This document shows positions 31,395 to 34,691 of a stretch of 64,000 bases of DNA, piece after piece (positions within the stretch are counted from its first letter, which is position 1; the number at the start of each line of letters is the position of its first letter). The DNA comes from an uncultured Coriobacteriaceae bacterium (GTDB lineage Bacteria > Actinomycetota > Coriobacteriia > Coriobacteriales > Atopobiaceae), in the NCBI GenBank assembly GCA_947426865.1, contig CANEFS010000001.1, forward strand, positions 62,001 through 126,000, given 5' to 3'. The notes under the pieces were generated by a model. That model did no database searches, was not told the origin of the DNA, and was given only the letters and a program-made list of their open reading frames with translations. A program made the position numbers and the translations under genes.

Positions 31395-31784
31395 ATGGCT
31401 GAACCAGTATTTTGGCGTTGCAACACGTGCGGAAATTTCTTTTACGCGCTTCATGACAGCGGAGTGAATCCCGTCTGCTGCAGCAAAGACATGGAAAAGA
31501 TTGAGGCGAACACGGTGGACGCCGCGCAAGAAAAACACGTCCCCTTCGTGCAAAAAGAGGACAAGCATATCGTTGTCAACATTGGCGAGATTGACCACCC
31601 CATGGAAGATGCTCATTGGATTCAATGGGTCGCTCTTTTCGACAAGGCAGGAAATATTACCTTCAAGACGCTCGTTCCAGGCGATGCTCCCAACGTCAAA
31701 TTTTGTGGCAAGAATGTAGATGAGGGAACTATTTATGCCTATTGCAACGTGCACGGACTTTGGAAAAAGGAATTTAGATTTTAA
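31395..31784 (+). CDS. dfx: Desulfoferrodoxin (two-iron superoxide reductase)
   Basis: The protein reduces superoxide to peroxide in the cytoplasm of anaerobes without releasing oxygen. The N-terminal desulforedoxin-like site is CNTCG with a CC pair (VNPVCCSKDM). The C-terminal catalytic iron site has the EKHVP glutamate-lysine loop, HPMEDAHW and CNVHGLW. I chose the ATG at 31395 because AAAGGAG lies six bases upstream; the preceding ATG (31392) is only three bases away from it. The length (129 residues) is normal. The stop codon abuts the start of the NAD+ synthetase-like gene, suggesting coupled translation. Confidence 0.95.
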   Translation: MAEPVFWRCNTCGNFFYALHDSGVNPVCCSKDMEKIEANTVDAAQEKHVPFVQKEDKHIVVNIGEIDHPMEDAHWIQWVALFDKAGNITFKTLVPGDAPNVKFCGKNVDEGTIYAYCNVHGLWKKEFRF

Positions 31785-33872
31785 ATGAAAATAAAAATTG
31801 GTATCCCTCAAATCGATTCGATGCTGGGGGATTTTCAGGCTCAGTCCAAGCAGCTAATAGAACTCGATAAACACTTTGCAAAAGAGGGGGCAGATCTTGT
31901 CGTCTACCCCCCTTCTTTTTGGACCCCAAACCGAGAAGAAGGCTTTTACTTCGGCGTCACTTTCTACATCGACGCTTTCAACATGCTCTGTAAGCTTACG
32001 GATAATATTCAGGTCCCAACCGTAATCCCCGTTCCTCTTCCTGTCGGGGCTGAAGAAGACAGCACTCTTCTTTTCATACATAACGGATACCTCGACTACC
32101 TTGATGAAGAGGATCCAGATTATGACGAGCATGAGCCACATTGGAAGAGGAGTTCCGCTTCAGGCTTTAGCGCTCTTCGTTTGGAAGACAAAACAATCGC
32201 CTTTTTCCAAGGCTTTGACGATCTCTACGTGGCCTTGGATGTAGTGACTCCCTTTGGCAAATCCCACGGGGGTTTCTCGGAAAAGGTGAGGGGCAAAAGA
32301 GGCAGAAAAGGAAGGGCTAGAAAGGCTGATAAGTTATTTGATGCGGCCATATTTTTGCCCGAAATGGGATTTCGTAGCGACTTTGCGCCCTCTGCCTGCG
32401 GAGCCATGTATTCCCATCTCGGAATGGGAGACGTTGCCGCAGATTTTAATTCGTGGATTGTTGGTATAAACGGTGTGGGGGGATACGAGGAGGAGATTTA
32501 TACCGGCTCTTCCTTCGTTTTGACACCCTGGGGCGAGGCGCAAGACATTCTTCCTGCTTTCACAGAAACAATTCAGACGGTAGAGATTGATTTTTCCGCC
32601 GAAGGACCTCTTAAAAAGCCAGCCCCTTCTCCAAAACCCACGCCCACATCGCTCATTTATTCCGCTCTTTGTTTAGGTACCAAAGACTTTATTGAAAAGG
32701 ACGGCTATCAAGGAGCAGCCCTTTTGCTCACAGGAGATTTGAACTCCTCGGTCCTTGCTAAGCTTGCAGTTGATGCTCTGGGACCAACGCGCGTTCATGC
32801 CGTTTGCGCGCCTTTGGCAGGCACCACTCAGGCCGAGAAAACCGCCGCTTTCAAAGATGCCGCCTCTCTCGCGAAAGAGTTGCACATATCTTTTGAGGAG
32901 GTCTCGCCAGAGCGCCTGAAAGATTTCTCAAGCATGTTTAAAGAGGCCCCCAAAGACTACCCAGGCATATTTGGTCTTCGAGCCTACGTCGCAGAGGTTG
33001 GTGCAAGCAAAGGCTACGCCTCCCTTACCGCGGCAGACAAAACAGCCTATTGCTTGGGACATGACATCGACGGATGGCAAAATTGCGTCTGGTCTCCCTT
33101 TAAAGATCTCTATCGCTCAGAGGTGGAGGAGATGGCGCGAAATATTAATGCTCACAAAGAAACGCTTTCTAAAGAAATGCTTTCTCGGCTGAATATTTTG
33201 AAATCTTCCCAGCTCGCTCCCAATAAAAATATTTCAAAAAATTGGCGAGCAGACCTTTCGTATGTGAAAGAAATAGATCAATTGCTTCGCGATATTGTCC
33301 ATTGGGATACTCCCCTTGCGCTTTTGGATGAGAAGGTGTCTGATTATACGCTTGCTCAAGCGGTGGTGAAGCACTTTTATGAAAACGTGAAGCTTCGCCG
33401 AACTCTTCCTCTTGGACCTTGCCTCAAAATGGTTGGTTCCCAGAAGGCGATGTTTTCTTGGGTGGGAGTTTGGTACGACCGCTTTGCGAAAGATGAAGCA
33501 GACCGAGAAGGTATTAAAAACGCGTTCGAAGAAGAAAGAGCTCTGTCATTTCTTGCTGCAATGGGGGAGGAAGACGTAGATGATGAGGAAGACCCCCGCG
33601 AAGTGCTTGCGGCTTTAATGACAAAGGACGCTGGCCCCACTTCTGGTATGGAAAAGACTACGAGCCTGAACGTGGACGTCGATGTTGATGGAGAATTTGA
33701 TATCGATAAAGCCACGGACATTATAAAGAGCATTCTTGGCAAAGAAATTGCGGAATCGGATGAGGTGGCAGAGGCTCTCGGAGCTGTCTCCGACACGCTC
33801 TCCTCTGGCGCAATCGACTCTGACCAAGCTGACGATGATCTTTTTGCCCACGGCCTTTTCTCGAATAACTAA
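31785..33872 (+). CDS. Degenerate glutamine-dependent NAD+ synthetase-like protein
   Basis: The 695-residue protein has the two-domain plan of NadE: an amidase-like domain (1-270) and an ATP pyrophosphatase-like domain (290-590), plus an acidic C-terminal extension. The fold signature is clear (KIGIPQIDSMLGDF, INGVGGYEEEIYTGSSFVL, LAVDALGPTRVHAV, FKDLYRSEVEEMA). The active sites look lost. The expected glutamate of VVYPE is proline (YPPS, residue 43). The catalytic cysteine region reads FFQGFDD (140-146) with no cysteine. The PP-loop SGGxDSS reads TGDLNSS (316-322). TGNKSE reads as AADKTAY. It is probably a pseudoenzyme or has a new activity. It directly follows dfx and ends at a strong terminator. 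Confidence 0.8.
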   Translation: MKIKIGIPQIDSMLGDFQAQSKQLIELDKHFAKEGADLVVYPPSFWTPNREEGFYFGVTFYIDAFNMLCKLTDNIQVPTVIPVPLPVGAEEDSTLLFIHNGYLDYLDEEDPDYDEHEPHWKRSSASGFSALRLEDKTIAFFQGFDDLYVALDVVTPFGKSHGGFSEKVRGKRGRKGRARKADKLFDAAIFLPEMGFRSDFAPSACGAMYSHLGMGDVAADFNSWIVGINGVGGYEEEIYTGSSFVLTPWGEAQDILPAFTETIQTVEIDFSAEGPLKKPAPSPKPTPTSLIYSALCLGTKDFIEKDGYQGAALLLTGDLNSSVLAKLAVDALGPTRVHAVCAPLAGTTQAEKTAAFKDAASLAKELHISFEEVSPERLKDFSSMFKEAPKDYPGIFGLRAYVAEVGASKGYASLTAADKTAYCLGHDIDGWQNCVWSPFKDLYRSEVEEMARNINAHKETLSKEMLSRLNILKSSQLAPNKNISKNWRADLSYVKEIDQLLRDIVHWDTPLALLDEKVSDYTLAQAVVKHFYENVKLRRTLPLGPCLKMVGSQKAMFSWVGVWYDRFAKDEADREGIKNAFEEERALSFLAAMGEEDVDDEEDPREVLAALMTKDAGPTSGMEKTTSLNVDVDVDGEFDIDKATDIIKSILGKEIAESDEVAEALGAVSDTLSSGAIDSDQADDDLFAHGLFSNN

Positions 33873-33892: not shown

Positions 33893-33936
33893 TTGCCCCC
33901 GGAGCCTACCAAAGGCGCCGTGGGCCAATTGTTTTT
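33893..33936 (+). terminator. Intrinsic terminator after the NAD+ synthetase-like gene
   Basis: A long interrupted hairpin runs from TTGCCC (33893) through GCCT/AGGC at the tip to GGGCCAA (ending 33928). Its pairs are TTG/CAA, CCC/GGG, CGG/CCG and GCCT/AGGC with single mismatches. It is followed by TTGTTTTT. It lies 21 bases after the stop codon and separates the dfx pair from ruvCAB. Confidence 0.85.
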
Positions 33937-34163: not shown

Positions 34164-34691
34164 ATGATTATTATGGGAATCGATCCGGGTTTGGCCAACA
34201 CGGGCTGGGCGATTATTGAGACGCGTGGCAACAAAACGTACGCCCGAGCATACGATTGCATCTCAACTTCTTCTAAAACCGTTTCCTTGGCCGACCGCCT
34301 TTCGACCATCTCCTTTCAAATAACAGCTGCCATGGAGCGCTTTCAGCCCGATGCCGTTGCTACCGAGAAAATCTTTTTCGGCCAAAACCATAAATCCGCC
34401 ATCGCGACCGCTGAAGCACGAGGCGCTGCCCTTGCCGCCTGCGGCGCTTTTCCAGCAGAGCTCGGAGAGTATACGCCGGTTCAAATCAAGCAAGCGGTTG
34501 TGGGAACCGGATCTGCCGACAAGGACCAGGTAACGTATATGGTGCGCTCTATTTTGGGCCTCGATCACGACCCAAAACCGGACCACTGTGCTGATGCCTT
34601 TGCCGCAGCTTTATGCCACTTCAACTTGGGTTGCTCGGCACAAAGAATGCACGAAAAGAAAAGCAAGACAATCGAAGGAATCGCCCTATGA
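34164..34691 (+). CDS. ruvC: Holliday junction resolvase RuvC
   Basis: The 175-residue nuclease cuts four-way DNA junctions as a dimer. The acidic catalytic residues of the RNase H-like fold are visible: D7 in GIDPGLANTGWA, E in ATEKIFFGQN, and the aspartates of DHCADAFAAAL. The length is normal. The stop overlaps the ruvA start as ATGA, so the genes are translationally coupled. It is likely induced by DNA damage through the LexA box. Confidence 0.97.
   Translation: MIIMGIDPGLANTGWAIIETRGNKTYARAYDCISTSSKTVSLADRLSTISFQITAAMERFQPDAVATEKIFFGQNHKSAIATAEARGAALAACGAFPAELGEYTPVQIKQAVVGTGSADKDQVTYMVRSILGLDHDPKPDHCADAFAAALCHFNLGCSAQRMHEKKSKTIEGIAL

Follow-up and report, generated by a model that had tools for sequence, protein, structure and literature searches.

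Among the glutamine-dependent NAD+ synthetases (NadE), the described systems closest to the one considered here are the dimeric two-domain enzymes of solved structure (5kha and 4f4h; also 3n05) and the octameric NadE of the M. tuberculosis type, which belongs to the same family and likewise has two domains. The catalytic residues of NadE, among them the Glu-Lys-Cys triad of the amidase, and its tunnels have been described (PMC6946656), as have the evolution of one- and two-domain forms (PMC3376133) and the regulation of NadE by PII (PMC7196632). A term search of PMC3376133 did not turn up an inactive NadE, and in the open-access literature (most subscription journals lie outside it) we found neither a description of a NadE pseudoenzyme nor anything that links a superoxide reductase (SOR) to a NadE-like protein. 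The protein that we describe here, "NadL", has the dimeric two-domain NadE both as its best match in sequence and structure and, by phylogeny, as its ancestral type. It shares the domain order and fold of that enzyme, whereas the amidase triad and all of the synthetase signatures are gone and a variable linker with a C-terminal F-S-x-N tail has been added.

The window analysed is a stretch of 64,000 nucleotides from a member of the Atopobiaceae with a reduced genome (1.04 Mb), and all of the features given below lie on its forward strand. The dfx gene (31395-31784; its start could also be an ATG 3 nt before 31395) encodes a 2Fe superoxide reductase, or desulfoferrodoxin, of 129 aa and is apparently complete. 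Its product has both Pfam domains of this protein family, Desulfoferrodox at 2.5e-19 (the PF01880/PF06397 pair is above cut-off) and Desulfoferrod_N at 1.5e-6, and scores 123 bits against TIGR00320, under the cut-off of 146.9; as read from the sequence, it carries the iron ligands of both centres (C-x2-C, CC, EKH, HPMxxxH and CNxHG), with CxxC...CC at centre I and His/Cys ligands at centre II. The nadL gene follows at 31785-33872, its ATG at 31785 abutting the dfx TAA and its own stop codon at 33870-33872, so that the preliminary description is right about the 695-codon intact frame, which begins immediately after the dfx stop. The normal codon use claimed there holds as well: nadL falls inside the range of the long ORFs of the window, near the low end. 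The "strong" terminator that was said to end the unit fared less well. By fold energy a hairpin followed by TTGTTTTTGTT at 33894-33930 is a probable terminator, but it is a moderate one (-19.6 kcal/mol, z -1.7), and the hairpin is absent from the list returned by a consensus terminator scan. Farther downstream lies ruvC (34164-34691), a conserved 3' neighbour, with ruvA and ruvB next, to 36458.

The NadL of the window consists of a dead nitrilase/glutaminase-like domain (about residues 1-275, 31785-32609, delimited by alignments and an AF2 model), a dead NAD-synthetase-like domain (about residues 285-545, 32637-33419; Pfam 292-508), and a variable, acidic C-terminal extension (33420-33857), largely of low confidence or disordered by AF2 pLDDT, that ends in FSNN (33858-33869). 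The two-domain NadE fold is borne out by the Pfam architecture, with NAD_synthase at 4.4e-11 and CN_hydrolase at 3.2e-5, both above the gathering score, and by an AF2 model for which the top Foldseek matches are NadE; against the NCBIfam model PRK13981 (NAD+ synthase) the protein scores 107 bits and does not reach the equivalog cut-off of 479. A basic insertion (about KVRGKRGRKGRARKADK) at 32286-32330, in the nitrilase-like domain, is found in none of the aligned relatives.

The catalytic residues have disappeared from this fold, as the preliminary description had it. The amidase residues named there are gone, with YPPS at the position of the Glu (residue 43), and when the NadL profile is compared with the solved NadE 5kha all three columns of the amidase Glu-Lys-Cys triad pair with non-catalytic residues. 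The former PP-loop reads TGDLNSS (residues 316-322, 32730-32750), not SGGxDSS; intact relatives have SGGIDSS or SGGIDSA there. The NKSE, GD and YK signatures have changed as well, as has the Mg2+ Glu; DKT (residues 418-420, 33036-33044), which is invariant in the NadL of Atopobiaceae, stands in place of the NKS of NKSE. Among 121 aligned NadL sequences from the Atopobiaceae and Coriobacteriaceae, none keeps SGGxDS and none keeps the amidase Glu; the PP-loop variants in these two families are xGDLxS, DGSLxS and similar. We compared 27 pseudoenzymes with 12 intact orthologues column by column. Of the 94 conserved columns of the synthetase domain, 28 were well retained and 41 were missing in 90% or more of the pseudoenzymes; the lost columns are those of the PP-loop and of the NxQxRxR, TGNKSE, STLYGD, YK and KPPSAEL motifs, that is, the substrate and metal loops, and the retained ones belong to the core of the fold. 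The amidase domain retains 14 of its 16 conserved columns. The idea that other positions provide the catalytic residues can be set aside, as no copy has SGGxDS anywhere and, in the matches to solved NadE, equivalent positions are aligned. Chance or sequencing error can likewise be set aside because some 120 homologues show the equivalent loss. From these alignments we infer that NadL is a pseudoenzyme that has lost catalysis. In two genomes of one genus (G024 and G025; proteins L226 and L227) divergence of the synthetase domain has gone further, and in G025 Pfam fails to recognise it; the nitrilase-like domain persists.

The dfx-nadL pair exists in other Coriobacteriia. Among 140 genomes of Atopobiaceae, NadL was found in 134, the weakest of these matches being doubtful, and in 110 of the 124 that have both genes dfx and nadL are adjacent and on the same strand. 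The 101 good genomes divide into 91 with NadL and dfx, 8 with NadL only, none with dfx only and 2 with neither, a weak match in G017 being scored as absent. A Pfam search found no SOR in the 8 NadL-only genomes, each at least 90% complete; in those that we read, the tail is intact, decay is not apparent, and ruvCAB or dnaE are usually present as neighbours. In the Coriobacteriaceae, all 22 nadL loci read have dfx on the 5' side, the ruv genes on the 3' side and an FFSxN end. In Collinsella aerofaciens, to whose protein annotated "hypothetical protein" the Coriobacteriaceae protein L179 matches at 96.8%, the order is dnaE - SNF2 - dfx - nadL - ruvC - ruvA - ruvB. The nadL gene sits in an old syntenic block, dnaE-dfx-NadL-ruvCAB, with flanks that vary in length between loci. 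In a set of 100 loci, ruvC is a neighbour of nadL in 89 and dfx in 80, and in two genera (g9 and g28) dfx is located away from nadL. Another old neighbour is a DUF4012 gene, which lies between nadL and ruvC in several Atopobiaceae; two such proteins encoded beside nadL (L170:1-2238, +, in G141, and L084:7915-9945, +) are 31% identical to each other. Some genomes of genus g33 (G102, G106, G108, G109 and G110) have a tandem pair of dfx genes close together upstream of nadL. Single-sequence scans of genome contigs and viral contigs with the NadL of the window gave no match, and an alignment of the family did find homologues; the empty scans are probably explained by the position of the window protein, the longest branch in the tree of the family, among the most divergent copies.

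That NadL is under selection, as had been claimed, is upheld by its presence in 99 of the 101 good Atopobiaceae genomes, by frames that are open over their full length in about 130 genomes and by a dN/dS of about 0.24. In 25 pairs compared by the NG86 method, among them a few in which one species pair was sampled twice, the median dN/dS was 0.24 for the whole protein, 0.16 for the N domain, 0.22 for the synthetase domain, 0.29 for the linker and 0 for the tail, where dN itself is about 0. The C-terminal extension is at once the fastest-evolving part of NadL, in its linker, and the site of its most constant feature. After this variable and flexible linker, F-S-x-N stands at the C-terminus of 120 of the 121 aligned sequences, the sole exception being a truncated frame of 527 aa from a metagenome-assembled genome (MAG), and it also ends 14 further NadL of Coriobacteriaceae; G024 and G025, with their strongly diverged synthetase domains, still terminate in GPFSEN. 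Elsewhere in the protein, invariant residues occur in the DVYR and W/GGSF motifs besides DKT. Two AF2 models of NadL recover the NadE fold and leave the tail disordered and unplaced, with pLDDT below 50 at residues 615-634 and 676-695 of the window protein, as expected of a docking motif. The conserved disordered tail could also act within NadL itself, or as a signal for degradation or localisation; a common sorting or degradation tag of these cells can be discounted, given that FFSxN before a stop occurs at about the background level in 11 genomes.

Searches of the genome of the window by profile and pattern show a separate NadE of the M. tuberculosis type (L001:1276-3348, minus strand, G000:C12), a distant branch from NadL with an intact SGGLDST synthetase site and no link to dfx. 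Because the synthetase site of this second enzyme is intact, NAD synthesis in the organism need not depend on NadL. Its amidase has kept the Glu and Lys and lost the nucleophilic Cys. Several relatives among the Atopobiaceae have Gly at the Cys site, so that loss of the glutaminase recurs there. A second NadE of this type is present beside NadL in genomes of both Atopobiaceae and Coriobacteriaceae, including nearly all of the good genomes of the former.

The sister families (f5, f6, f8 and f9) hold proteins orthologous to NadL (L171-L175, L177, L178, L183 and L223-L225) in which the amidase is dead and the synthetase intact, with no adjacent dfx and with FSxN in none of the 8 examined for it. 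In the genomes searched, such an orthologue is usually the sole NadE, and it is the only full NadE type in those examined of f5, f6, f8 and f9 and in G141 of a further family, f3; one genome of f5 (G243) has two copies. The two f3 genomes hold forms that combine features of both groups. In G141 the protein (L170) combines a dead amidase with an intact synthetase and is the sole NadE, and, like NadL, it has dfx directly upstream and a tail (GFPIFSKN); ruvCAB are not adjacent. In G149 the loop is degenerate (AGDLDSS), DKT is present and the tail reads PLFSKN; dfx lies 3.7 kb upstream in the same orientation, and the ruv genes are not adjacent; this genome has a separate single-domain NadE (L250, G149:C21, SGGKDSS), unlike the replacement found in Atopobiaceae and Coriobacteriaceae. 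The tree, for which the G149 gene, split across two contigs, was joined via a 3-residue overlap, has the form (sister families, (G141, (G149, (Coriobacteriaceae, Atopobiaceae)))), with supports of 100/99 for the pseudoenzymes with G141, 95/98 for G149 with the two families and 100/99-100 for the two families together. Because of the placement of G141 and G149, the tail and the link to dfx are, on this sequence tree, older than the loss of the synthetase, an order that turns on the single genome G141 and one branch. Loss of the synthetase has been observed solely in genomes with another NadE; a second NadE does not by itself force that loss, since G218, of a sister lineage, has both types and an orthologue with an intact synthetase.

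What NadL does can be approached through its neighbours, its ancestry or its own residues. The preliminary description had proposed a specific tie to SOR, with redox or NAD sensing, and this found little backing: 8 of the 99 good genomes with NadL have no dfx, and since NadL in those that were read keeps its tail, SOR cannot be obligatory for NadL. A role linked to SOR or to NAD sensing, in which NadL would be a partner or regulator of the reductase that senses redox state or NAD(H), is possible at a rather low probability. It draws on the upstream position of dfx at most loci of both families, including that in G141, where ruvCAB are not adjacent, and in G149, and on the finding that, in the good genomes, dfx never occurs without nadL. 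Yet the pair lies within a conserved block that also includes dnaE and ruvCAB, so that adjacency can be inherited synteny, dfx has moved away in g9 and g28, and the residues that bind ATP-pyrophosphate and Mg2+ are among those lost, which counts against an ATP sensor. The same block could be read in favour of the replication and recombination genes, with NadL serving DnaE and RuvCAB and its tail docking to a DNA-repair protein. In this vein, ruvC is found beside nadL more often than dfx and persists where dfx is lost, and the flexible linker with a conserved tip has a layout that we take to be similar to that of the SSB C-terminal tail; we consider this reading less probable still, as ruvCAB are not adjacent in the tailed G141 and G149, the flanks vary in length, and the tip itself presumably differs from the SSB tail and from clamp-binding motifs. 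Neither ruvC nor dfx is constant beside nadL, and gene order thus does not name a partner.

Pseudoenzymes frequently regulate their relatives, and the NadE ancestry of NadL, with a second NadE alongside it in nearly all good genomes, invites the view that it is a regulatory subunit of the other NadE, for example in mixed oligomers or by titrating a NadE regulator. We give this little credence, on a par with the DNA-repair role, because the second NadE, M. tuberculosis-like in the two families and single-domain in G149, is of too distant a type for mixed oligomers to be likely, and because G141 already has the tail on a protein that is its sole NadE. Retained or newly acquired catalysis through a rebuilt site would account for the invariant residues of DKT, DVYR and W/GGSF, but within the fold conservation is lowest in the loops of the former active site, and the residues at the PP-loop, Mg2+ and amidase positions differ freely among copies, so that we regard it as improbable. 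A decaying pseudogene, to which the strong divergence might point, above all that in the reduced genome of the window, is next to impossible: an artefact or pseudogene is ruled out by the conservation of full-length frames, the dN/dS and the invariant C-terminus.

The explanation that we favour, and consider reasonably probable, is that NadL derives from the housekeeping NAD synthetase ancestral to the Coriobacteriales and has been kept for a non-catalytic role that depends on its tail. Sequence comparison shows that, throughout the lineage sampled, the glutaminase half was dead from the outset, with an intact synthetase half that was the only NadE of the cell. One branch then acquired the C-terminal F-S-x-N tail, with dfx linked upstream, and those of its descendants that own another NadE lost the synthetase site entirely, while purifying selection holds the fold and the tail. 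The selected function would be non-catalytic, and this second role would have begun before NadE activity was lost and have outlasted it. Because NadL is kept across two families with an unchanging tail despite its lost catalysis, it now probably acts as a binding protein, most likely by tail-mediated docking of a NadE-like scaffold onto another protein. By analogy with NadE, the body would probably be a dimer or larger oligomer that displays flexible arms, the FSxN tips of which may dock into a partner and make NadL an adaptor, a scaffold or a regulator. At the least, the data require some non-catalytic role that depends on fold and tail. Superoxide reductase, although not required, counts as a candidate partner because the linkage is old.

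Pseudoenzymes as such are already known. The more general proposition is that a housekeeping NadE, still catalytic, gained a second job mediated by its tail and, once another NadE had assumed the chemistry, became a dedicated tailed pseudoenzyme in two families of gut bacteria, with living intermediates; we put the chances of this at about even. Living genomes here provide an unusual series, from a catalytic ancestor through an intermediate with a non-catalytic element to a fully dead form, which makes the order "moonlighting first, catalysis lost later" testable, and the C-terminus, with its three invariant residues, is a sharp handle in the search for a partner. NadL is common in Collinsella, Olsenella and Atopobium relatives of human and animal guts, where the C. 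aerofaciens record calls it hypothetical and automatic calls elsewhere may misread it as an NAD synthetase.
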